Shown in pieces: positions 25,489 to 46,077 of a stretch of 64,000 bases of DNA. The notes under the pieces are model-generated. The model was given only the letters and a program-made list of their open reading frames with translations. It was not told the origin of the DNA and ran no database searches. This DNA is from Micrococcus flavus (GTDB lineage Bacteria; Actinomycetota; Actinomycetes; Actinomycetales; Micrococcaceae). The first letter of the stretch is position 1. Every line of letters starts with the position of its first letter. The stretch lies in the NCBI RefSeq assembly GCF_014204815.1, contig NZ_JACHMC010000001.1, forward strand, positions 2,108,001 to 2,172,000, in the 5' to 3' direction. A program made the translations under genes and the position numbers.

Positions 25489-25573
25489 GGCGTCTCCTTC
25501 ATCGGGTCGCGACCGGCGCACGGGTTCTCGCGTCGGGCCGCCGCACGGCGAGGCCCGGGAAGCGTGGACGCGT

Positions 25574-25680
25574 CCATCGGTCCTGGCGGGAGCACCCTGG
25601 CCCTCGCCCGGCCTGCGGGAGGCGGGTGAGGCGGGTTGCTGCGGCGTCGTCGAGCCAGATCTCTCGGCCGCTCTGGATGG
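25574..25680 (-). promoter_or_regulatory. SAM-I (S-box) riboswitch upstream of metNIQ
   Basis: Read on the minus strand: P1 arms CCATC and GATGG close the element. The 5' half has CCATCCAGAGCGGCCGAGAG and the invariant GCAGCAACC junction; the 3' half has GGTGCTCCCGCCAGGACCGA. All match the S-box layout. Between P1 and the metN start are about 85 nt with a GC hairpin (GGGCC...GGCCC) that may be the expression platform. Expected effect, from the family, is repression by SAM. Confidence 0.85.
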
Positions 25681-25783
25681 GTGGCTCCAGCTGACCACAG
25701 GCCGCGTCGCGGGCGGGTCCACCTCGGCGTCTGAGGACGCGCGACACCCGCCGGACGGCACGCCGTCCCGCGGCCGGGCCTAG

Positions 25784-26720
25784 GGCGTGTCTGAGAATAG
25801 ATGCACGAGTCAGCTGAGACCCTGGGGACATGTCCCGGTTCCAGATGCTCTCCGACGCCCAATGGGAGTTGATCGCCCCGATGCTCCCGACCCGGACCGG
25901 CCGCGCCGGCAGGCCGTTCGCCGACGCCCGCACCATGGTGGAGGCGATCATCTACCGGTACCGGTGCGGAATCGCTTGGAGGGATCTGCCCGAGGTCTAC
26001 GGGCCCTGGCAGACCGTGTGGACCTGGCATCGGCGCTTGGCCGAAAAAGGCACATGGGACACGGTGCTGGCCACGCTGACCGCCGCCGCTGACGCCGAAG
26101 GCCTGATCGATTGGTCGGTCTCGGTGGACTCCACGATCGCCCGCGCCCACCAGCACGCGACGAACATCACCCGCCACACAGGGGGATGGATCGAACTACA
26201 AGAATCCGCGTGAGGAGCCGGCCGATCACGGCATCGGGCGCTCCCGTGGCGGGCTGAGCACGAAGATCCATCAGCTCGTCGATGGGACCGGGCTGCCGCT
26301 GGTCAGCCTGATCACCCCCGGCCAGGCAGGGGACTCCCCGATGCTGCTTCCTCTTCTGGAGCAGCTGCGCGTGCCCCGGCCAGTAGGGCGGCCCCGGACC
26401 CGCCCCGAGGCCGTGCTGGGCGATAAGGCGTACTCCTCCCGGGCGATCCGCACCCACCTACGTGCCCGTGGGATCAAAGCGGTCATCCCCGAACCGGCCG
26501 ACCAGCAGGGCCACCGCAGACGGCGCGGTGCCCGCGGCGGGCGCCCCGTCAGCCTCGACGCGGACGCCTACAAGGGCCGCAACGTCATCGAGCGTCAGTA
26601 CGCTCACCTGAAGCAGTGGCGGGGTCTGGCGACCCGGTATGACAAGTACGCGATCATCTACAGGGCCGCTGTGGTCCTGAATGCTGTGCTCGCGTGGTCA
26701 AAACGATTGTCAGACATGCC
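25784..26720 (+). mobile_element. IS5 family, IS427-group insertion sequence
   Basis: 937-bp element with terminal inverted repeats GGCGTGTCTGAGAAT (left) and GGCATGTCTGACAAT (right, reverse complement), 13 of 15 matching, flanked by a CTAG direct repeat (25780-25783 and 26721-26724) as expected for this group. It sits between the metNIQ riboswitch leader and ssuBAC, about 100 bp upstream of the riboswitch. Apparently complete. Confidence 0.92.
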
Positions 26721-26724
26721 CTAG
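25830..26724 (+). CDS. IS5/IS427 transposase encoded in two frames
   Basis: DDE transposase split in two overlapping frames. Frame A (25830-26213) carries the N-terminal domain and first Asp (SVSVDSTIARAHQHA). Frame B continues through NYKNPREEPADHGIGRSRGG and carries the second Asp (VLGDKAYSS) and Glu (NVIERQYAHLKQWRG), ending at 26724. A CAGGGGGATGG run near 26179 is the likely slip site; the required shift is +1 (or -2). IS427-group elements use translational frameshifting, so this may be functional rather than broken. The TAG stop is supplied by the right-hand CTAG target duplication. Confidence 0.85.
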
Positions 26725-26833
26725 ATGACGTGCCAGGTCACGTGCGCTGGAGCGCGGCGCCGTCGTCATGGTGAGGTCGGGGAGCCCCTCCCCCGCGCCG
26801 ACCGCGCGGCCCGGCCCGACGACCCCGGGGCGT

Positions 26834-26867
26834 CCCACCCCGTTCCCGGAGGGAGCGAGCGGGTGGG
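26834..26867 (+). other. Hairpin in the ssuB leader
   Basis: CCCACCCCG and CGGGTGGG form an 8-bp stem with one bulge in the otherwise featureless 180-bp gap between the IS and ssuB. No riboswitch consensus is recognised here. An ACGTG-N6-CACGT pair lies at about 26728-26743. Confidence 0.35.
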
Positions 26868-26904
26868 CGCCACGCCTGCACACCGATGGGACGACACACG
26901 TTCG

Positions 26905-27789
26905 ATGCCTGCACACACCCTCAGCCCCGCTGACCGATCCCCCAGGACCGCGAACCGTCCGGCGGACGCCGCCGCGACAGCCCCCGCGCCTCGACGGGAC
27001 AGCCTCGGCGTCGCCTTCCACGGCGTCGGGCGCACCTTCAGCACGGCGAACGGACCGCGCGTCGTGCTGCGGGACGTGGACCTCACGGTGTCCCCCGGAG
27101 AGGTGCTGGCGATCATCGGCGCCTCCGGCTGCGGCAAGTCCACGCTGCTGCGCGCCGTCGGTGGGCTGGACAGCGGCTTCGACGGCCGGCTCCTGATCGG
27201 CGGCTCCCCCGTGCTGCCGTTCGATGAGCGCACCGCCGTCGGCTTCCAGGAGCCCCGTCTGCTGCCCTGGCGCACGATCCGTCGCAACGTGGAGCTGGGT
27301 CTGCCCCGTGGGCTGAACCGCGCCGAGGGCCGCGAGCGCGTCCAGCACCTGCTCGAACTCGTCGGCCTGGCCCCGTTCGCGGACCACCGGCCGCGCGAGG
27401 TCTCCGGTGGCATGGCGCAACGGGCGTCCCTGGCCCGCGCGTTGGCCCGCCGCCCCGGCGTCCTCCTGCTCGACGAGCCCTTCGGAGCGCTCGACGCCCT
27501 CACCCGGCTCAAGATGCAGGACCTGCTGCTGGACGTCCACGCCGCCACCGGCACCACCGTGCTGCTCGTGACGCACGACGTCGAGGAGGCCCTCCAGTTG
27601 GCCGACCGGGTCCTTCTGCTCTCCCGCCCCCAGACGGATCGCGGGCAGCCCGCCCCCGCCCCCGGGGCCACGGTCGGACGGATCGTCGAGGTCCCCGGCA
27701 CCCGGCCGCGCGACCGCGCCGACGCCGACCTCGCCCGCCTGCGCTCCGAGCTCCTCGCGGGCCTGGGCATCGCTTCCCACTCCCACTGA
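26905..27789 (+). CDS. ssuB: Aliphatic sulfonate-type ABC transporter ATP-binding protein
   Basis: 294 aa. Walker A GASGCGKST, signature VSGGMAQRAS, Walker B VLLLDEP, FGALD, and H-loop THDVEEAL; FQEPRLLPW is typical of the SsuB/TauB group. Start at ATG 26905 is the most reasonable; the N-terminal 30 residues are low complexity and the true start could be later. First gene of ssuB-ssuA-ssuC, 20 bp before ssuA. Confidence 0.9.
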   Translation: MPAHTLSPADRSPRTANRPADAAATAPAPRRDSLGVAFHGVGRTFSTANGPRVVLRDVDLTVSPGEVLAIIGASGCGKSTLLRAVGGLDSGFDGRLLIGGSPVLPFDERTAVGFQEPRLLPWRTIRRNVELGLPRGLNRAEGRERVQHLLELVGLAPFADHRPREVSGGMAQRASLARALARRPGVLLLDEPFGALDALTRLKMQDLLLDVHAATGTTVLLVTHDVEEALQLADRVLLLSRPQTDRGQPAPAPGATVGRIVEVPGTRPRDRADADLARLRSELLAGLGIASHSH

Positions 27790-27808
27790 CCCCCTGAAAG
27801 GCACACCC

Positions 27809-28831
27809 ATGCGCACCCTTCGCCCTGCCCTCCCCCTGACCGCCCTGCTCGCCGCCTCCGCCCTCGCGCTCACGGCCTGCGCCGGAGAGGACGCCCCGTC
27901 CGCCGCCGGCTCGAGCGCCGGAACGGCCGCCGCGTCCCAGACGCTGTCCATCGACTTCGCGACCTACAACCCCCTCTCCCTGGTCATCAAGGACCAGGGG
28001 TGGCTTGAGGAGGAGCTCTCCGACGACGGCGTCACGGTGGAATGGGTGCAGTCGGCCGGTTCGAACAAGGCCAACGAGGCCCTGCGGTCGGGCGCGATCG
28101 ACGTCGGCTCCACCGCAGGCTCCGCGGCCCTCCTCAACCGGGCCAACGGGGCGCCGATCAAGACCATCGTCGTCGCGAACCAGCCGGAGTGGTCCGCACT
28201 CCTGACCGGGCCGGACTCCGACATCACGTCCATCGAGCAGCTCGAGGGTCGGTCGGTGGCCGCGACCAAGGGCACCGACCCGTACTTCTTCCTGATCCAG
28301 GCCCTCGAGGGCGCGGGGGTCGAGCCGTCCTCGGTCACGGTGCAGAACCTCCAGCACGCGGACGGACGCGCAGCCCTGGAGAACGGCTCCGTGGACGCGT
28401 GGGCCGGGCTCGATCCGATCATGGCCGCCGCCGAGGCGAACGGGGCGCGGTTCGTGCACCGCGACCCCGACCTGAACAGCTACAGCGTGGTGAACGCCAC
28501 GGAGGACTTCCTCACGGAGAGCCCGGAGACGGCGCAGGTGGTCGCCGACACGTACGAGCGCGCGCGCCGGTGGGCCGTCGAGAACCCCGAGGAGACGGCC
28601 CGGATCCTGGCCGAGGTCGCCGGCCTGGAGGAGTCGGTGGCCACCCAGGTCATCGCGGAGCGGACCAACCTGGACATCTCACCCGTGCCCGGCAAGGACC
28701 AGCGGAGGGTGCTCTCCGCCATCGGCCCGATCTTCGTCGACACGGGCGACGTCCCCGATCAGGAGCAGGTCGACGAGGCGCTCGAGACCCTCTTCGATCC
28801 GACCTTCGCCGAGAAGGCCGAGTCGAAGTGA
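27809..28831 (+). CDS. ssuA: Aliphatic sulfonate-type ABC transporter substrate-binding lipoprotein
   Basis: 340 aa. Lipoprotein signal with ALTACA (Cys about 25), then an SsuA/NMT1-like periplasmic-binding domain (IDFATYNPLSLVIKDQGWLE, GAIDVGSTAGSAALLNRANG, YFFLIQALEGAGV). GAAAGG upstream. The GTG of ssuC overlaps its stop. Sulfonate or sulfate-ester uptake inferred from family and from the surrounding monooxygenases. Confidence 0.9.
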   Translation: MRTLRPALPLTALLAASALALTACAGEDAPSAAGSSAGTAAASQTLSIDFATYNPLSLVIKDQGWLEEELSDDGVTVEWVQSAGSNKANEALRSGAIDVGSTAGSAALLNRANGAPIKTIVVANQPEWSALLTGPDSDITSIEQLEGRSVAATKGTDPYFFLIQALEGAGVEPSSVTVQNLQHADGRAALENGSVDAWAGLDPIMAAAEANGARFVHRDPDLNSYSVVNATEDFLTESPETAQVVADTYERARRWAVENPEETARILAEVAGLEESVATQVIAERTNLDISPVPGKDQRRVLSAIGPIFVDTGDVPDQEQVDEALETLFDPTFAEKAESK

Positions 28832-29655
28832 GCGCGTCCACGACCGTCGGCGCCCCCGAGACGACGCCGACCCCTGCGGGCGCGCCGCGTCCGGAGGCGC
28901 TGTCCCGACCGGGAGTGCGCGCCGCCGTCGGACTCGCGGTCCCCGTGCTGCTCCTGCTGGCGTGGTGGGCCGCCACCGCGGCGGGTGCCTTCTCGGCGGT
29001 GCAGCTGCCCTCCCCGCAGGCGGTCGTTCGGGCCGGGGCCGACCTGGCCGGACGCGGCGATCTGTGGACCCACATCGGGATCTCGACGCAGCGCGTGCTG
29101 CTGGGCTTCGCGATCGGCGCGGTCCTCGGCCTGGCCGTGGGATCGGCCCTGGGGCTGTCCCGCTGGGCGGACGCCCTGCTGGCCCCGCTGATCGGAGCGT
29201 TGCGGGCCGTGCCGTCCCTCGCCTGGGTGCCCCTGCTGATCCTGTGGATGCAGATCGGCGAGGACTCGAAGGTCACCCTGATCGCGATCGGTGCGTTCTT
29301 CCCCGTGTTCACCACTGTCCACTCCGCGCTGCGGCACGTCGACCCGCATCTCGTGGAAGCGGGCCGCGCGTTCGGCTACCACGGGCTCTCGCTCCTGCGG
29401 ACGGTGCAGCTGCCGGCCGTGGTGCCCGCCGTGTTCTCCGGCCTGCGGCTGGCCCTCGCCCAGGCCTGGCTGTTCCTGGTGGCTGCGGAGCTGATCGCCT
29501 CCTCCATGGGGCTGGGCTTCCTGCTCACGGATTCGCAGAACAACGGCCGGACGGACCGGCTAATCCTCGCGATCATCCTGCTCGCGGTGCTCGGGAAGGT
29601 GTCCGACTGGGGGCTCGGCCTCGTGGAGCGCTGGGCGCTGCGCCGCTGGAGCTGA
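28828..29655 (+). CDS. ssuC: Aliphatic sulfonate-type ABC transporter permease
   Basis: 275 aa, six membrane segments, BPD-type permease loop LVEAGRAFGYHGLSLLRTVQLP and SsuC-like SLAWVPLLILWMQIGEDSK. GTG start overlaps ssuA by 4 bp. Completes the importer. The next gene is on the other strand, ending 37 bp downstream. Confidence 0.92.
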   Translation: MSASTTVGAPETTPTPAGAPRPEALSRPGVRAAVGLAVPVLLLLAWWAATAAGAFSAVQLPSPQAVVRAGADLAGRGDLWTHIGISTQRVLLGFAIGAVLGLAVGSALGLSRWADALLAPLIGALRAVPSLAWVPLLILWMQIGEDSKVTLIAIGAFFPVFTTVHSALRHVDPHLVEAGRAFGYHGLSLLRTVQLPAVVPAVFSGLRLALAQAWLFLVAAELIASSMGLGFLLTDSQNNGRTDRLILAIILLAVLGKVSDWGLGLVERWALRRWS

Positions 29656-32455: not shown

Positions 32456-33855
32456 CGGGCCTCCTGGGTCACGAGGTGGTCGGTCGGGTGGTCCTCGGCG
32501 GAGGGGGTGGCAGGGGCGGGACGAGCCTCCGGAACGCGGGGGTCGCCGGCGCCGACCAGGTCCACGTCGTCGGCGCCGCGGGGGTCACGGGCGAGGACGG
32601 AGGCCGCCAGGGACAGCACCGCCAGCAGGGTGAGGTAGGCGGCGATCAGCCACGGGGTGCCGTTGCCCGCCTGGAAGAGCAGGGCGGCGATGAACGGGGC
32701 GAATCCTCCGCCCACCACGGTGCCGAGCTGGTATCCGAGATTCACGCCGGAGTAGCGCACGCGGACCGGGAACTGCTCGGCGAACCACGCGGCCTGCGGG
32801 CCGTACACGGAGTCATGGGCAACGTTGATCACGAGCACCACCACCAGCGGCAGCAGGGACAGGGCCCCGGCCTCGGCCACGAAGAACAGGACCCACCCGG
32901 CCACCGCGGTCAGGCAGTAGCCGAGCTGGGACACGCGGCGCCGTCCGTACCGGTCGGACAGGGCTCCCCAGAACGGGGTGGAGATCAGGCCGATCGCCGA
33001 GGCGATCATGGTGGCCTCCAGCAGGACCGAGCTGTCCAGACCCTTCAGCACCAGATAGCTGACCAGGTAGGTGGTCACCAGGTAGTAGAGGCCGTTCTGC
33101 CCCAGGCGCAGGCCGGCGGTGACCAGCACCGGGCGGGTGTGGTGGCGCAGCAGCTCCAGCACCGGGGCGCTGCTGACGCCGTCGGCCTCCCGCAGCTGCC
33201 GGAACTCCTCCGCGTCCTCCACGCCGAGGCGGATGAGCAGGCCGACCACCACGAGCACGGCGGAGGCCAGGAACGGGATGCGCCAGCCGAACGCCGCGAA
33301 CTGCTCCGGCGTGCTCAGCGCCGTGGTGACGGTGAAGGCACCGGTGGCCAGGAGCATGCCGGCCGAGGATCCGACCTGGGTGAAGGAGCCGAAGAAGCCG
33401 CGCCGGCCGGCCGGAGCGTGCTCCACGGACGTCAGGGCGGCGCCGCCCCACTCCATGCCGGCGGACAGGCCCTGCAGGCAGCGCAGCAGCACCAGCCCGA
33501 CGACGGACCACCATCCGACCTGCTCGAAGGTCGGCAGCAGGCCGATGCCCACGGAGGCCACCCCCATGACCACCAGGGAGACCACCAGGAGCGACTTGCG
33601 TCCGACGCGGTCGCCGAAGTGCCCGGCGAGGATGCCGCCCAGGGGGCGAACGACCACACCGACAGCCAGGGTCGCGAAGGAGGCGATCGATCCGCCCAGA
33701 GGTGTGGAGCCGGGGAAGAACTGGACGTTGAACACGAGCGCCGCGGCGAGGCCGTAGAGGTAGAAGTCGTACCACTCGATGGTGGTGCCCACGAACGAGC
33801 CGAACACGGCCCGCAGCCGGGTGCGGCGGATGCTCTGGACGGTCTGCGCGCTCAT
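32452..33855 (-). CDS. MFS transporter, metabolite:H+ symporter (MHS) type
   Basis: 467 aa, 12 membrane segments. MHS signatures are GTTIEWYDFYLYG near the N-terminus, RPLGGILAGHFGDRVGRKSLLV in loop 2-3 and LSDRYGRRRVSQ in loop 8-9. ATGA overlaps on both sides couple it to the upstream SfnB-like reading frame and the downstream LLM gene, implying uptake of the substrate of those oxygenases. Confidence 0.92.
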   Translation of the reverse strand: MSAQTVQSIRRTRLRAVFGSFVGTTIEWYDFYLYGLAAALVFNVQFFPGSTPLGGSIASFATLAVGVVVRPLGGILAGHFGDRVGRKSLLVVSLVVMGVASVGIGLLPTFEQVGWWSVVGLVLLRCLQGLSAGMEWGGAALTSVEHAPAGRRGFFGSFTQVGSSAGMLLATGAFTVTTALSTPEQFAAFGWRIPFLASAVLVVVGLLIRLGVEDAEEFRQLREADGVSSAPVLELLRHHTRPVLVTAGLRLGQNGLYYLVTTYLVSYLVLKGLDSSVLLEATMIASAIGLISTPFWGALSDRYGRRRVSQLGYCLTAVAGWVLFFVAEAGALSLLPLVVVLVINVAHDSVYGPQAAWFAEQFPVRVRYSGVNLGYQLGTVVGGGFAPFIAALLFQAGNGTPWLIAAYLTLLAVLSLAASVLARDPRGADDVDLVGAGDPRVPEARPAPATPSAEDHPTDHLVTQEAR

Positions 33856-35264
33856 CGTGGGTCTCCCTGGGCTGCGGTGCCCTCGGCACCGGCCGCGCCC
33901 TCGCCCCCGGCACCGGTCGTGGCAGCACCGGGGGCGTCTCCGATGGCGTTGAGCCCCTCGGGCAGGGTGCCGTTGACGAACCAGTCGCCCACGGAGCGGG
34001 CGCGGAACGGGATGGGGTTGTGGGTGGCCACGGTCTGCGCGTTGCGCCAGAACCGGTCCAGGGCCTTGCCGGCCCGGGTGTGGGAGGCACCACCGGCGTG
34101 GAACAGCTCAGAGGTCGCGCGGATGGCGGCCTCCGGGACCGTCACCTGCGCCTGCTCGACGGCCAGCTCGGCCGCGTAGATCTCCAGGGCCAGGTCCTGT
34201 TCCGCGTCGCCGCCCCCGCCGCGGCGGTCGGCCCGGGCCTCGTCGACCGCGGCGATCGCGGCGTCCAGGGCGTCGGCGGCGTGCAGCACCGTGGCGGTCA
34301 CGGAGAACGCGGTGGAGGCGATCCTGCCGACCGCCTCCTGGATCAGCGGGTCGTCCCGGTAGCGGGCGCCGGAGCCGGTGTTGAAGGTGCGGGTGCGGCG
34401 GCGGACCAGCTCCGCCGCGGTGTCCCGGGCCCCGGTGGCGATGCCGGCGAGCACGGCGAGCAGGAACAGCTGGAAGTAGGCGGCCTCGATCACGGCCTCG
34501 GCCGTACCGGTCTGCCGCTCGAACACGTCGGCCCGGTCCACGGGGACGCGGGTGAACACGGCGGTGCCGGTGGCGGTGAGCCGCTGGCCGAAGCCGTCCT
34601 AGTCGTCGTAGAGCTCGACGCCCTCCTGGTCCACGGGCACCACAGCGAAGCAGCGTCCCGTGGTGGGGCGGCCGTCGTCGTCCGTCACGGCGGCGGAGAC
34701 GCGGGTGTGGGTGGAGAACAGAGAGGCGGTGGCGTAGCCCTTGCGGCCGGTCAGCAGGGCGGTGCCGTCCGGTCCCTGCTCGAGCGTGGTGTTCAGGGTG
34801 CCCAGGGCATTGCCCGAGGTCTCCGTGGACGCATTGCCCACCGTGGCGCCCTCCAAAACCAGCCGGTACCAGCGGTCCTGCTGCGCTGCGTCCTTGTGGC
34901 GCAGGGACTCGAGGAAGCCGTAGTGGGAGCGGTACTGGTGGGCCACGTTGGAGTCGGCGGCGGCCAGGTCCACCAGCAGTGCGGTCAGGGTCCGCACGCT
35001 CACCTCGGGACCCCCGTGGGAGCGCGGTACCCGGAGGGTCGCGAAGCCCGCCGCGTTGAGCTCGCGGATCTCCGCGTAGGGCAGGGTGCGGTGCACGTCC
35101 CGCTCGGCGGCGCCGGCGGCGATCCGCTCGACGATCGGGGCGAAGCGCCGGCGGAGCAGGGCGAGGTCGGCGGTGTCCGGGACGTCCGGCACCGCCGCGA
35201 GCGGCGGCCGGCCGGGGACCGCGTTGACGGTCGGATCGTGGGCGTTGGCTGTGGGCACAGGCAT
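33852..35264 (-). pseudogene. SfnB/DszC-type monooxygenase interrupted by one in-frame TAG
   Basis: A 471-codon frame with one internal TAG at 34599-34601 (codon 222). Both halves stay in the same frame and each matches the paralogue at 29692. The N-terminal half has FATLRVPRSHGGPEVSVRT and LLTGRKGYATASLF; the C-terminal half has RRRTRTFNTG and DRFWRNAQTVATHNP. The context reads LYDD-stop-DGFGQRLTATG, where the paralogue has DDWDGFGQRLTATG, so TGG became TAG by a single base change. It is the first gene behind a SAM-I riboswitch (35280-35379). It could be a recent loss, a sequencing error or a readthrough site. GAGGAG precedes the ATG. Confidence 0.88.
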
Positions 35265-35279
35265 GGAGATGCTCCTCTT

Positions 35280-35379
35280 CCATCGGTCCCGGCGGTAGCA
35301 CCGTCGCGTTCCTGCGGAGCAGGGCTGCGGGGGTTGCTGCGGCGTCGTCGATCCGGGTCTCTCGGCCGCTCTGGATGGG
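35280..35379 (-). promoter_or_regulatory. SAM-I riboswitch upstream of the SfnB-like operon
   Basis: On the minus strand: P1 arms CCATC/GATGG, CCATCCAGAGCGGCCGAGAG, the GCAGCAACC junction and GGTGCTACCGCCGGGACCGA. The P1 3' strand ends only 15 nt before the start codon and the GAGGAG ribosome binding site follows it directly, so control of translation is more likely than a terminator. Confidence 0.87.
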
Positions 35380-35569
35380 TCTGCCCCAGCACAGCACGGC
35401 CGGCCCCTGCCCCGGAATCCCCCGCAGGATCCGGTGTCATCCCCGCCCCCGCCGGACGCCCTGAACCGCCCGGCACCGCCCATGTGACCGTCCGCGACCG
35501 CTTCCACCCCGACCGACGACCCCGGGCACCGTGCCGGACCCCCGCCGGGCCTACAGTGGCTCGCGCACA
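35380..35569. promoter_or_regulatory. Divergent promoter region between two SAM-I riboswitches
   Basis: A 190-bp gap without coding signals. A -10-like TACAGT (35552-35557) lies 12 nt before the plus-strand riboswitch. TGCTGT sits at the same 12-nt distance from the minus-strand riboswitch, and TGTGGT (25694-25699 on the minus strand) before the metNIQ one. No convincing -35 boxes. Confidence 0.4.
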
Positions 35570-35664
35570 CCATCCAGAGCGGCACCAGAGACCTGGCTCC
35601 TCGACGCCGCAGCAACCCGGGCCCGCGGTCAGCGGACTGCGGGTGCTCCCGCCAGGACCGATGG
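35570..35664 (+). promoter_or_regulatory. SAM-I riboswitch upstream of acetyl-CoA synthetase
   Basis: P1 arms CCATC (35570) and GATGG (to 35664), 5' half CCATCCAGAGCGGCACCAGAG, junction GCAGCAACC, 3' half GGGTGCTCCCGCCAGGACCG. AAGGAG begins at the next base and the ATG is 14 nt past the element, so SAM-dependent masking of the ribosome binding site is the likely mechanism. Confidence 0.87.
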
Positions 35665-35678
35665 AAGGAGAACGACGC

Positions 35679-37835
35679 ATGTCCGCGTCCCCGCACACCA
35701 CCACCGCCCCGGCACCCGAAGCCGCCGTCCGCGGCCCCAACGACGGCGTGCCCACCGCCGCCCTGGCGACCCTGCCGGGCCCGCTGCCGCAGCACCTGGT
35801 GGATGCGGCGGACCCGGATGTCCATCCGGGACGTCCCGCGGACCTGTTGCACGGAGGACGAGGCAACGGGGCCGTCGTCGCCGAGTCCGACCGGCTGGCC
35901 TTCTGGGAGGCGGTGGGCCGCCGGCTGACCTGGGACACGGACTTCACCCAGGTGAACGACACCGTCCCCACGGACGCCGCCACGGGCACCGCCCCGCAGA
36001 TCCGCTGGTACGCGGACGGCCGGCTCAACGTGGCCGTGAACTGCGTGGACCGGCACGTGGCGGCGGGGCGCGGGGAGAAGGTCGCCCTGTACTTCGAGGG
36101 CGAGCCCGGGGACCGCCGCACCGTGACCTACACGCAGCTGCTGGCAGAGGTCTCCCAGGCGGCGAACGCCCTCGAGGAGCTCGGCATCCGCCCCGGGGAC
36201 CGCGTGGTCGTGTACCTGCCGGTGCTCGTGGAGACCATCGTGATCGCCCTGGCGTGCGCGCGGATCGGCGCGGTGCACTCGCTGGTGTTCGGCGGGTTCT
36301 CCGCGGACGCGCTGCGCTTCCGCGTGGAGGACACGGGCGCCAAGCTCCTGGTCACCACGGACGGCCAGTTCCGCCGCGGCACGGCCGTCCCGGTGAAGGC
36401 CCACGCGGACGAGGCCGTGTCCGGGGACAACGCGATCGAGCACGTGCTGGTGCTGGACCGCACCGGCCAGCGGGACATCCCGTGGACCGAGGGCCGGGAC
36501 CTGTGGTGGCACGACGTCGTCGACCGCCAGCCCACCACCCACGCGGCGCGGGCCTTCGACGCCGAGCACCCGCTGTTCATCATGTACACCTCCGGCACCA
36601 CGGGACAGCCCAAGGGCCTCGTGCACACCTCCGCCGGGTACCTCGCGGCCGCCTCCTGGACGCACGACCTCCTGTTCTCGCACCCGGACGTGTCCCGGCG
36701 GGACACGGACGTGCACTGGTGCACCGCGGACCTGGCCTGGGTCACCGCCCACACCTACGAGATCTACGGACCGCTCTCCAACGGCGTCACCCAGGTGATC
36801 TACGAGGGCGTGCCCAACGCCCCGCACCCGGGCCGGCACTTCGAGGTGATCGAGCGCTACGGCGTGACCAGCTACTACACGGCCCCCACGCTGATCCGCT
36901 CCCTCATGGGCTGGCATCCGGACGGCATCCCCGCGCGCGAGGACGGCGGCCCCGACCTGTCCTCCATCCGCCTGATCGGCACCGTGGGCGAAGCCGTGAA
37001 CCCCGAGGCCTGGGTGTGGGCGCGCACGCAGATCGGACGGGACGCCCTCGGCCCCGACGACCCGCGGGACGGCTCCGCCGGCGTGCCCATGGTGGACACG
37101 TGGTGGCAGTCCGAGACCGGCTCCACCGTGATCTCCCCGCGCCCCACGGACACCTCGTTCAAGCCCGGCTGCGGCTCCCGCCCCCTGCCGGGACTGGACG
37201 TGGCCGTGGTGGACGACGACGGCGCGCCCGTCCCCGCGGACGTCCAAGGCAGGATCGTGGTCACCCGCACGTCGCCGTCGATGGCCCGCACCGTGTGGGG
37301 CGACCCGGCGCGCTTCTTCCACTCCTATTGGGAGGACTACGCGGAGCAGGGCTGGTTCCTCGCCGGCGACGGCGCCAAGCACGACGCGGACGGGGACGTC
37401 TGGATCCTCGGCCGGATCGACGACGTCATCAACATCTCCGGGCACCGGCTGTCCACCATCGAGATCGAGTCCGCGCTGGTCTCCCACCCCGAGGTGATCG
37501 AGGCCGGCGTGTGCCCGGTGCCGGACCCGAGGACCGGCCACGCCGCCGTCGCCTTCGTGGTGGCGCACGCCCGCTGGGCGGCCGGCGACGACGCCGCGGC
37601 CGCCGAGCGGGCCCAGGAGCTGCGGGCGCACGTGGGCCGGGTGATCGGCCCGGTGGCCAAGCCGGCCGACGTGGTGTTCGTCCCCGACGTGCCGAAGACC
37701 CGCTCGGGCAAGATCATGCGCCGCCTGCTCACCCAGCTGCACCGGGGCAGCCCCCTGGGCGACACCACGAGCCTGCAGAACGAGCCGTGCATCGCGCAGA
37801 TCGCCAACGTCATGGCCGCCCGCCGCGCCTCCTGA
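35679..37835 (+). CDS. acsA: Acetyl-CoA synthetase (AMP-forming)
   Basis: 718 aa; activates acetate, or a related short acid, to the CoA thioester via acyl-AMP. Motifs: YTSGTTGQPKG (about 303), WCTADLAWVTAHTY, TWWQSETGS, GRIDDVINISGHRLSTIEIES, and the catalytic Lys region RSGKIMRRLL (about 676), which is also the usual acetylation site. The N-terminus is about 60 residues longer than typical Acs. The start is fixed by AAGGAG at 35665-35670. It is preceded by a SAM-I riboswitch and divergent from a sulfur monooxygenase operon, which is unusual and suggests a role linked to sulfur or methionine metabolism. Confidence 0.93.
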   Translation: MSASPHTTTAPAPEAAVRGPNDGVPTAALATLPGPLPQHLVDAADPDVHPGRPADLLHGGRGNGAVVAESDRLAFWEAVGRRLTWDTDFTQVNDTVPTDAATGTAPQIRWYADGRLNVAVNCVDRHVAAGRGEKVALYFEGEPGDRRTVTYTQLLAEVSQAANALEELGIRPGDRVVVYLPVLVETIVIALACARIGAVHSLVFGGFSADALRFRVEDTGAKLLVTTDGQFRRGTAVPVKAHADEAVSGDNAIEHVLVLDRTGQRDIPWTEGRDLWWHDVVDRQPTTHAARAFDAEHPLFIMYTSGTTGQPKGLVHTSAGYLAAASWTHDLLFSHPDVSRRDTDVHWCTADLAWVTAHTYEIYGPLSNGVTQVIYEGVPNAPHPGRHFEVIERYGVTSYYTAPTLIRSLMGWHPDGIPAREDGGPDLSSIRLIGTVGEAVNPEAWVWARTQIGRDALGPDDPRDGSAGVPMVDTWWQSETGSTVISPRPTDTSFKPGCGSRPLPGLDVAVVDDDGAPVPADVQGRIVVTRTSPSMARTVWGDPARFFHSYWEDYAEQGWFLAGDGAKHDADGDVWILGRIDDVINISGHRLSTIEIESALVSHPEVIEAGVCPVPDPRTGHAAVAFVVAHARWAAGDDAAAAERAQELRAHVGRVIGPVAKPADVVFVPDVPKTRSGKIMRRLLTQLHRGSPLGDTTSLQNEPCIAQIANVMAARRAS

Positions 37836-44200: not shown

Positions 44201-45565
44201 GTGGCTGACCACGAGTTCGGCTTCCGCACGAAGGCCCTCCATGCGGGCGCCGTGCCGGACGCCGTGCACGGCTCCCGCGCCGTGCCGATCCACCAGACCA
44301 GCTCGTTCGTGTTCGAGTCGGCGGACGACGCGGCCAACCTCTTCGCGCTGCAGAAGTACGGCAACATCTACAGCCGCATCGGCAACCCCACGGTGGCGGC
44401 CTTCGAGGAGCGGATCGCCACGCTCGAGGGCGGCATCGGCGCGGTGGCCACCGCCTCCGGCATGGCCGCGGAGTTCATCACCTTCGCGGCCCTGTGCCAG
44501 GCGGGGGACCACATCGTGGCCTCGGCCAAGCTCTACGGCGGCACCATCACCCAGCTGGACGTGTCCCTGCGCCGGTTCGGCGTGGAGACGACGTTCGTGG
44601 ACTCCACGGAGGCGGCCGACTTCGAGGCGGCGATCCGGGAGGACACCAAGGCCGTCTACACGGAGATCGTGGCCAACCCCTCCGGCGACGTCGTGGACCT
44701 GCCGGGCCTGGCCGACGTCGCGCACCGCCACGGGATCCCGCTCGTGGTGGACGCCACGCTGACGCCGCCGTACCTGATCCGGCCCATCGAGCACGGCGCC
44801 GACATCGTGATCCACTCGGCCACGAAGTTCCTCGGCGGGCACGGCACCACGCTCGGCGGCGTGGTGGTGGAGTCCGGCCGCTTCCCGTGGGACAACGGGA
44901 GGTTCCCGTCCATGACGGAGCCGGTACCCTCCTACGGCGGCGTGTCCTGGTGGGGCAACTTCGGCGAGTACGGCTTCCTCACCAAGCTGCGCTCCGAGCA
45001 GCTGCGCGACTTCGGCCCCTCCCTGGCCCCGCAGTCGGCGTTCCAGCTGATGATCGGCGTCGAGACGCTGGCCCAGCGCATGGACGCCCACCTGGCCAAC
45101 GCCCAGGCCGTCGCCGAGTGGCTCGACGCCGACCCGCGCGTGTCCTGGGTGTCCTACGCGGGCCTGCCGCACCACCCGCACCACGCCCGCGCGCAGGAGC
45201 TGCTGCCCCTCGGCGTCGGCTCGGTGTTCAGCTTCGGCGTGGCCCCCGGTGAGGACGGCGACGGGCGCGCCGCCGGCGGGCGCTTCATCGGCGCGCTGCG
45301 GCTGGCCAGCCACCTGGCCAACATCGGGGACGCGAAGACCCTCGTGCTGCACCCCGCCTCCACGACCCACCAGCAGCTCACCGCGGAGCAGCTCGTGGCC
45401 GGCGGCGTGCCGGAGGACCTGATCCGCATCTCGGTGGGCATCGAGGACGTCGCGGACATCCTGTGGGACCTGGACCAGGCCCTCACCGCAGCCACGGGAC
45501 GCACCCGCGAGAGCGCCCCCGCCCCCACCGACGACGCCGCCCCCGCGAAGGAGGACCCGCGATGA
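44201..45565 (+). CDS. metY: O-acetylhomoserine sulfhydrylase / aminocarboxypropyltransferase
   Basis: 454-aa PLP enzyme making homocysteine from O-acetylhomoserine and sulfide. FRTKALHAGAVPD at the start, ATASGMAAEF, VDATLTPPYLIRPIEHGADI, PLP-binding Lys in HSATKFLGGHG (about 208), and long family-typical C-terminus (LASHLANIGDAKTLVLHPAST). GTG start after AAAGGA. It overlaps the CoA-binding protein gene by 4 bp. A -10-like GAGAAT lies at 44118. No SAM riboswitch is visible upstream, unlike the other methionine-linked operons here. Confidence 0.95.
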   Translation: MADHEFGFRTKALHAGAVPDAVHGSRAVPIHQTSSFVFESADDAANLFALQKYGNIYSRIGNPTVAAFEERIATLEGGIGAVATASGMAAEFITFAALCQAGDHIVASAKLYGGTITQLDVSLRRFGVETTFVDSTEAADFEAAIREDTKAVYTEIVANPSGDVVDLPGLADVAHRHGIPLVVDATLTPPYLIRPIEHGADIVIHSATKFLGGHGTTLGGVVVESGRFPWDNGRFPSMTEPVPSYGGVSWWGNFGEYGFLTKLRSEQLRDFGPSLAPQSAFQLMIGVETLAQRMDAHLANAQAVAEWLDADPRVSWVSYAGLPHHPHHARAQELLPLGVGSVFSFGVAPGEDGDGRAAGGRFIGALRLASHLANIGDAKTLVLHPASTTHQQLTAEQLVAGGVPEDLIRISVGIEDVADILWDLDQALTAATGRTRESAPAPTDDAAPAKEDPR

Positions 45566-46077
45566 GCACCCCTCTGCCCGAGCGCGCCTGGACCGGCCCG
45601 TCCGCCCCCGAGCGCCTGGCGCTGCTGCGCCGCACGCGCTCCATCGCGATCGTGGGCGCCTCGGACAAGCCGGAGCGCGCGTCCTACTTCGTGGCGACCT
45701 ACCTGCTGAGCTCCACCACGTTCGACGTGTACTTCGTGAACCCCGTGCTCGCGGAGGCGGGCAAGCAGATCCTGGGCCACCGCGTGTACGCCACGCTCGA
45801 GGACCTGCCCGTGGTGCCGGACCTCGTGGAGGTCTTCCGCAAGGCCGCGGACGCCCCCGGCGTGGTGGCGGACGCCCACGCGGTGGGCGCGAAGGCCGTG
45901 TGGCTGCAGCTGGGCATCTGGAACGAGGACGCCGCGGCCCTGGCCGAGTCCCACGGCATGGACGTGGTGATGGACCGCTGCGTGAAGATCGAGCATGCCC
46001 GATTCCACGGCGGCCTCAACCTGGCCGGGTTCAACACCGGCGTCATCTCCTCGAAGCGTCAGCCACTGGACCGCTGA
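45562..46077 (+). CDS. CoA-binding (YccU-like) protein
   Basis: 171 aa with a Rossmann-type CoA-binding domain: SIAIVGASDKPERASYFVATYLL, YFVNPVLAEAGKQILGHRVYATLEDLP, AVWLQLGIWNEDAAALAES and VVMDRCVKIEHARF. GAAGGAG upstream and ATGA overlap with metY, a pairing often seen in actinobacteria. Function unknown. Confidence 0.92.
   Translation: MSTPLPERAWTGPSAPERLALLRRTRSIAIVGASDKPERASYFVATYLLSSTTFDVYFVNPVLAEAGKQILGHRVYATLEDLPVVPDLVEVFRKAADAPGVVADAHAVGAKAVWLQLGIWNEDAAALAESHGMDVVMDRCVKIEHARFHGGLNLAGFNTGVISSKRQPLDR

Follow-up and report, generated by a model that had tools for sequence, protein, structure and literature searches.

We investigated the gene acs2 (35679..37835, + strand) and its 5' leader in a 64,000-nt stretch of the Micrococcus flavus genome (hereafter, the window; coordinates without a prefix are positions within it, those prefixed C1 are positions on the genome contig, and G and L numbers denote genomes and loci). 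The leader carries an aptamer of the S-adenosylmethionine (SAM) clan (35567..35667, +), an S-box element that is SAM-I-like but lacks the P4 helix, and acs2 encodes an AMP-forming acetate–CoA ligase of 718 aa. That the aptamer before acs2 is real we consider virtually certain, and its control of acs2 highly probable. For the system as a whole, the explanation that we favor, with some reserve, is that a P4-less SAM OFF-switch co-induces acetate recapture by Acs2 with sulfur scavenging. The aptamer, its family-wide conservation before the Acs2 paralogue, the acetate pocket of the enzyme and the gene neighborhood are all evident from the sequences.

The initial annotation of this DNA had described a leader with S-box P1 arms at 35570-35664 that resembled those of metN and of an SfnB-like gene. 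Both claims held: the arms CCATC/GATGG, GCAGCAACC and GGTGCTCCCGCCAGGACCGATGG are all found in the acs2 leader, and GACGCCGCAGCAACC, scanned for with 2 mismatches tolerated, matched the window at three sites, each time exactly, in the metN, SfnB-like and acs leaders, compared to a chance mean of 0.52, with three matches reached in 1 of 100 shuffles. A longer gapped core pattern likewise had three window matches, at a chance mean of 0.00. The Rfam SAM-I model RF00162 aligned with the acs2 leader end to end (model positions 1-108), scoring 33.3 bits (E 6.3e-6 over 321 nt scanned, E 1.2e-5 genome-wide), and was the sole Rfam match listed for it at E<=10, overlapping clan matches being shown as the best only. 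The SAM-I call made initially was upheld to the extent that there is a match, but its score is under the gathering score of 44.4 bits and P4 is missing; a scan of the window at the Rfam gathering cut-offs returned no entries. Genome-wide, RF00162 found four S-box copies, all sub-threshold (43, 39.6, 39 and 33.3 bits). We also built a model, R1, from an alignment (A2) of 25 Micrococcaceae aptamers, including the other three M. flavus copies and one row (L015) shorter by 9 nt; only the M. flavus acs2 leader was knowingly excluded, and other members may be acs leaders of their own genomes. R1 matched this non-member at 70.9 bits (E 4.9e-17) and, genome-wide, recovered the same four copies plus one further match at E 0.28.

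The 5' arm of P1 (CCATC, 35570..35574, +) pairs with the 3' arm (GATGG, 35660..35664, +), directly after which comes the Shine-Dalgarno sequence. Between the two arms, the RF00162 alignment and pair counts in A3, an alignment of 30 acs leaders (29 distinct), place P2a (35579-35583/35606-35610) and P2b (35588-35590/35597-35599; both within 35579..35610, +), the loop of the pseudoknot PK-1 (CCTGG, 35592-35596, +) and the conserved core GCAACC (35612..35617, +), which faces GGTGC (35642-35646). The 3' partner of PK-1, CCAGG (35652..35656, +), is followed by a 3-nt linker, ACC, in the usual place of P4. Left out of A3 were L074 (a weak match, 34.6 bits), L085 (odd length), and L084 and L086 (near-copies of L082). 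Across A3, 98.6% of the cells of the 20 named pairs are paired, and five pairs vary on both sides, which 0 of 500 shuffles reached, slid controls yielding 0 or 1 such pair; cells with double-sided changes number 18, versus 4.2 in shuffles. Four of five covariation measures were reached by 0/500 shuffles, and the measure of further pair types by 6/500. PK-1, formed between the P2b loop and the J3/4 junction, supplies 11 of the 18 double-change cells: three of its five pairs vary on both sides, with 95.9% of cells paired in the acs leaders, the variants being CCTGG/CCAGG in the window, CCCGG/CCGGG in L127 and TCTGG/CCAGA in many leaders. The five pairs of P1 are invariant across the 29 distinct leaders, that is, conserved without covariation. 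A chance match of the acs2 leader was rejected on the gapped core pattern, the R1 score and the covariation in acs leaders.

As to class, P1, P2a, P2b and the core of J1/2, J2/3 and P3 are present (of P3, just two closing pairs were counted), and P4 is absent: 3-4 nt separate PK-1 from P1 in 30 of the 30 acs leaders, and by inspection this spacing is short in the 25 A2 aptamers as well. With SAM-I (RF00162), the acs2 aptamer shares the core sequence, P1, P2a/P2b, P3, PK-1 and the GCAACC/GGTGC core, but it differs by the missing P4 and by acs as the target. In the available part of PMC6890682, SAM-IV is described as having PK-1, no P4 and an added P5/PK-2, and SAM-I/IV as having P4 and no PK-1. 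By this partial account, the acs2 aptamer resembles SAM-IV (RF00634) in belonging to the SAM clan, possessing PK-1 and lacking P4; however, the structure line of SAM-IV has P5 3' of P1, with PK-2, whereas in nearly all acs leaders the start codon falls roughly 20 nt or less past P1 (by eye). SAM-I/IV (RF01725), also of the SAM clan, shows the reverse combination in the same source. RF00634 had no match to the acs2 leader at E<=1, its M. flavus matches falling elsewhere, and RF01725 had no match at E<=1 anywhere in the M. flavus genome; identity with SAM-IV or SAM-I/IV was rejected on these grounds. Because PK-1 is kept, P4 is absent, scant room is left for P5 before most start codons, and none of the three classes, as far as that source describes them, is matched, we call the acs2 aptamer a P4-less SAM-I-like variant, apparently distinct from canonical SAM-I and presumably SAM-binding. 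Only tentatively do we go further and propose that the SAM clan has, in the Micrococcaceae, a fourth architecture, with PK-1 but neither P4 nor P5/PK-2, that works as a compact translational switch of a sulfur-scavenging regulon with a dedicated, acetate-recycling Acs among its members.

The survey of Micrococcaceae acs leaders envisaged in the initial annotation bore out the association. Among the relatives (the best 80 of at least 587 matches: 53 Micrococcaceae Acs2 loci, 20 Acs2 loci of other families and 7 outgroup loci), an R1 aptamer lies less than 300 nt upstream of the acs2 match in 31 of the 53 Micrococcaceae loci, including four Rothia nasimurium strains and the weak match L074, and 2.8-3.1 kb upstream, at the head of ssuB-ssuA-ssuC-acs, in 14; in one more (L041), it is 4.4 kb upstream of acs2, before ssuB. 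No R1 aptamer was found in the remaining 7; of these, L042 begins with the gene itself, the upstream DNA spans 1.5 kb in L075 and 3.5 kb in L076, and ssuB of L045 runs off the stretch, such that an operon-head aptamer could be missed. The carriers belong to Micrococcus, Citricoccus, Auritidibacter, Enteractinococcus, Zafaria, Yaniella, Paeniglutamicibacter, Sinomonas, Arthrobacter, Pseudarthrobacter, Glutamicibacter, Pseudoglutamicibacter, Kocuria and Rothia. Direct leaders of three relatives scanned with Rfam were all over the cut-off (L043 47.6, L049 47.9 and L065 47.1 bits), and in further Micrococcaceae loci, some from genomes shared with the 53, the aptamer is just upstream of acs2 in 19 of 24. 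R1, a Micrococcaceae-based model, detected no aptamer in the 20 other-family Acs2 loci or the 7 outgroup loci, and an all-Rfam scan of three other-family loci (L083, L096, L107) gave no aptamer over the cut-off.

On the Acs tree, the direct arrangement takes 12 changes, below every one of 500 shuffles. The pattern fits an ancestral aptamer-acs2 link with losses, and the tree also permits more gains. At the genome level, RF00162 matches at E<=0.01 occur in 248 of 295 Micrococcaceae genomes and exceed the cut-off in 219. In 120 genomes, with Acs2 scored as present at a best E<=1e-220 (a cut placed where the sorted scores leave a gap), Acs2 was found in 81 of 98 Micrococcaceae genomes with RF00162 matches versus 2 of 22 without (Fisher p 8.7e-11, uncorrected for kinship; G029, 82% complete, is counted as lacking both).

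The open reading frame (ORF) downstream of the aptamer is an acetyl-CoA synthetase, as initially annotated, by both family models and sequence matches in the PDB. TIGR02188, an equivalog model, scored 755.6 bits against Acs2 (cut-off 724.95), NF001208 was also over its cut-off, the domains ACAS_N, AMP-binding and AMP-binding_C are present, and the propionate and acetoacetate ligase models stayed far under their cut-offs. Residues 71-705 align with the Salmonella enterica Acs chains 2p20 and 1pg3/1pg4: with S. enterica Acs (1pg4/2p20), Acs2 shares a near full-length match, the acetate pocket and lysine 609, a residue subject to acetylation, but its N-terminus extends some 37 aa further, residue 71 of Acs2 being aligned with residue 34 of the S. 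enterica enzyme. From Acs in general (TIGR02188), it differs by its own branch, its sulfur-gene context and the S-box leader. V310, T311, V386 and W414 of S. enterica Acs lie <=4 A from the acetyl group, and their mutation shifts specificity, according to the part of PMC8511477 available. In S. enterica numbering, taken from the alignment with that enzyme, these four residues are retained in 82 of 82 Acs2 rows and 11 of 11 Acs1 rows, and N521 and K609 are also as in Acs in all 82 Acs2 rows (L041 and L121 being one genome). Judged from these features, acetate is very likely the substrate of Acs2.

M. flavus has a second Acs (Acs1), 55% identical to Acs2, and a third, PrpE-like relative (40% identity) that is under every curated cut-off listed and deviates at two of the four pocket residues. 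Acs1 and Acs2 each occur once in all 11 Micrococcus genomes searched. When 101 rows were placed in a tree by a quick method (L064 and L122 were too short to be included), the 82 Acs2 rows form one branch with a Shimodaira–Hasegawa-like approximate likelihood ratio test (SH-aLRT) support of 100, and the 11 Acs1 rows form a separate branch, drawn open, with a support of 94. R1 found no aptamer at the 11 acs1 loci, scanned with flanks of 1.5 kb, or in L007-L010.

The surroundings of acs2 connect it to sulfur metabolism. Gene calls for the window and the loci came from a home-made script, and locus neighbors are tblastn matches to window proteins. The window has, in order and all on the + strand, the sulfonate-type ATP-binding cassette (ABC) transporter genes ssuB-ssuA-ssuC (26905..29655; Pfam matches, and 200.3 bits for SsuA with TIGR01728, cut-off 163.5), acs2, and the O-acetylhomoserine (OAH)/O-acetylserine (OAS) sulfhydrylase gene metY with a gene for a CoA_binding_2 protein (44201..46077; TIGR01326 577.7 bits, cut-off 495.1; PF13380). 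In M. flavus, ssuBAC is 6.0 kb upstream of acs2 and metY-CoA_binding_2 6.4 kb downstream; ssuBAC is directly upstream in many relatives, and metY-CoA_binding_2 is closer in several. Of the 53 Micrococcaceae loci, 28 have ssu genes upstream of acs2 and 19 have metY downstream; the corresponding numbers for the 20 other-family loci are 8 and 6, so that one or the other is found in 39 of 53 and 10 of 20 (49 of 73 Acs2 loci); neither stands beside acs in the 7 outgroup loci. Four loci (L096, L107, L108 and L110, the last two near-copies) have the complete series ssuBAC-acs-metY-CoA_binding_2 without an R1 aptamer. The small CoA_binding_2 protein (45562-46077) is also encoded behind metY in relatives, in acs2-metY loci with a long enough flank.

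Of the other copies of the S-box element, one precedes metN (25571..25683, -; RF00162 43 bits, R1 80.2 bits), another the divergent SfnB-like gene (35277..35381, -; RF00162 39 bits, R1 77.1 bits), both being R1 members, and the fourth, outside the window at C1:2186011, precedes a metY-like gene, behind which are three more same-strand ORFs, the first metB-like (named by eye). Beside these four SAM-I-like elements, M. flavus has two SAM-IV riboswitches over the cut-off, at C1:1724497-1724613 (-) and C1:284689-284807 (-). The former (99.3 bits) precedes a metY-metX pair, with metY named by eye and the metX-like gene at 421.7 bits with TIGR01392, under the 500-bit cut-off, as in 14 control genomes. 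With metY-metX behind a SAM-IV element, two SAM-riboswitch classes therefore seem to divide core synthesis and scavenging in M. flavus. In Sinomonas cellulolyticus (L065), a SAM-IV element (L065 1413-1524, -) and a SAM-I element (L065 1664-1756, +) face apart with about 140 nt between them.

The layout of the leader would suit a translational switch. A -10-like box, TACAGT (TANNNT; 35552..35557, +), 12 nt before P1, is the predicted acs2 promoter. Of the 30 acs leaders, 12 have such a box at 8-18 nt upstream of P1 and 18 lack it; since 500 shuffles of those upstream sequences gave a mean of 4.4 (maximum 11), the aptamer probably starts the acs2 transcript, and the P4-less SAM-I-like riboswitch would be nearly the entire 5' leader. 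P1 ends 14 nt before the acs2 start, and the Shine-Dalgarno sequence AAGGAG (35665..35670, +) has a spacing of 8 nt from GGAG to the ATG (35679). In many relatives, GGAG overlaps P1 itself (by eye), and for SAM-I there is a precedent of a ribosome-binding site within the 3' side of P1 in the part of PMC2258182 available. That the leader belongs to another transcript is thought unlikely, given that the Shine-Dalgarno sequence adjoins P1 and the layout recurs across genera.

Under the mechanism that we propose, plentiful SAM would make the aptamer close P1, whose 3' arm adjoins the Shine-Dalgarno sequence, and translation would drop; when SAM (methionine, sulfur) is short, Acs2 would be made together with the organosulfur importers, flavin mononucleotide (FMN) monooxygenases and MetY-type enzymes of the regulon. 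OAH/OAS sulfhydrylases of the MetY type release acetate, one per sulfur fixed, which leads to the recycling interpretation: Acs2 would convert the acetate from O-acetylhomoserine/O-acetylserine sulfhydrylation to acetyl-CoA, the acyl donor of the same pathways. The binding of SAM, the OFF logic, the occlusion of the ribosome site and the recycling role are inferred, and we lean towards the view that Acs2 serves sulfur assimilation by recycling or supplying acetyl-CoA.

Several observations weigh against this interpretation, and some of them favor the alternative that the M. flavus acs aptamer is a decaying relic of regulon history that no longer works. It is the weakest of the four genome copies by RF00162, with changes in J3/4 and in the kink-turn, which has GA facing GA in many relatives and CA facing GA plus one extra base in the window. 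In our own comparison with the highly conserved SAM-I positions listed in the available part of PMC3764141, it departs from U4 (pair kept), G19 (kink-turn) and A61. Within Micrococcus, the DNA upstream of acs2 is readable in 10 genomes: the aptamer is there in M. flavus, G090 (L123) and G014 (L127) and missing from the other 7 (the eleventh genome, G166 (L122), has a contig edge at the locus); because only 3 of 10 carry it, aptamer control of acs2 is dispensable in the genus. Acs, initially presented as an unusual S-box target, has a family-wide link to the aptamer, though one with these gaps in Micrococcus itself. Against decay, P1, PK-1, GCAACC and GGTGC are intact, the Shine-Dalgarno sequence adjoins P1, and the G090 orthologue retains the same form, and we regard a non-functional relic as very unlikely. 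The occlusion step faces its own difficulty: energy folding without pseudoknot or ligand has the Shine-Dalgarno sequence tied up in a hairpin when the leader is free, and forcing P1 partly opens it, contrary to a simple occlusion model. As for gene order, minus-strand genes separate acs2 from ssuBAC and metY, which are neighbors and not one operon; neither ssu nor metY was found within the examined flank of 10 of the 20 non-Micrococcaceae Acs2 loci; and acs2 does not share a transcript with metX, since a SAM-IV element stands ahead of the metY-metX pair.

Other roles for Acs2 can be drawn from the same context. The enzyme might salvage a short acid left from the carbon skeleton of sulfonates (for example, ethanesulfonate to acetaldehyde to acetate) and not MetY/CysK acetate, which would suit the direct upstream position of ssuBAC (in 14 Micrococcaceae loci with the aptamer at the head, and in 8 of 20 other-family loci with none), as well as the two NtaA/DmoA-family FMN monooxygenases encoded in the window. 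However, the monooxygenase between acs2 and metY in L053, the sole one tested at that position, is SfnG, a dimethylsulfone monooxygenase (625 bits), whose C1 substrate yields no C2 acid, and in L099 and L111 acs2 is beside metY with no ssu found in the examined flank; we consider this salvage route unlikely. It is also rather improbable that Acs2 chiefly activates outside acetate for homoserine/serine acetylation when sulfur metabolism is induced, with recycling secondary: the same pocket and context evidence, and the metX-like gene in the genome despite its sub-threshold score, would be compatible with this, but acetyl-CoA is normally abundant, a second Acs is present in all 11 Micrococcus genomes searched, and no tie was found between the acs2 and metX transcripts. 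Of the explanations offered in the initial annotation, those based on acetate fit the pocket, conserved in 82/82 rows, and the ssu/MetY neighbors, whereas a sulfur-containing acid as the substrate (3-methylthiopropionate or sulfoacetate, for example) draws on the regulon context and is disfavored by the acetate-type pocket. The four residues that PMC8511477, as far as available, ties to acyl specificity are those of Acs, together with N521 and K609, and Acs2 passes the TIGR02188 cut-off and stays far under those of the propionate and acetoacetate ligase models; a sulfur-acid ligase is, in our judgment, highly improbable.

A literature search did not turn up, among the papers listed, any account of an acs gene preceded by a SAM riboswitch, which is weak evidence of novelty, most subscription papers being outside its scope. 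If the proposed recycling by Acs2 is correct, central acetate metabolism joins the targets of SAM riboswitches, a riboswitch that senses one metabolite adjusts how a by-product of that metabolite's own pathway is recovered, a paralogous Acs gains a testable physiological role, and the ssuBAC-acs-metY gene set is marked as one extending beyond the Micrococcaceae. The P4-less aptamer is missed by the Rfam cut-off in M. flavus, where all four copies are sub-threshold.

Some minor features of the region were also recorded. The SfnB-like gene (33852-35258, -) consists of two ORFs matching the N- and C-terminal halves of TIGR04022, implying a frameshift or an assembly error. Between the metN leader and ssuB, positions 25780-26724 hold an insertion, transposase-like by eye, whose two ends match (CTAGGGC(G/A)TGTCTGA). 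Before ssuB itself (26882-26891), just ACCGATGGGA is left, resembling the 3' end of an S-box P1; L041, from M. lacusdianchii, has a whole aptamer there. The two species thus show a regulatory swap: M. lacusdianchii (L041 510-614 and 4700-5060) has an aptamer before ssuB and none before acs2, and M. flavus, conversely, has one before acs2 (35567-35667) and none before ssuB (26730-26905).

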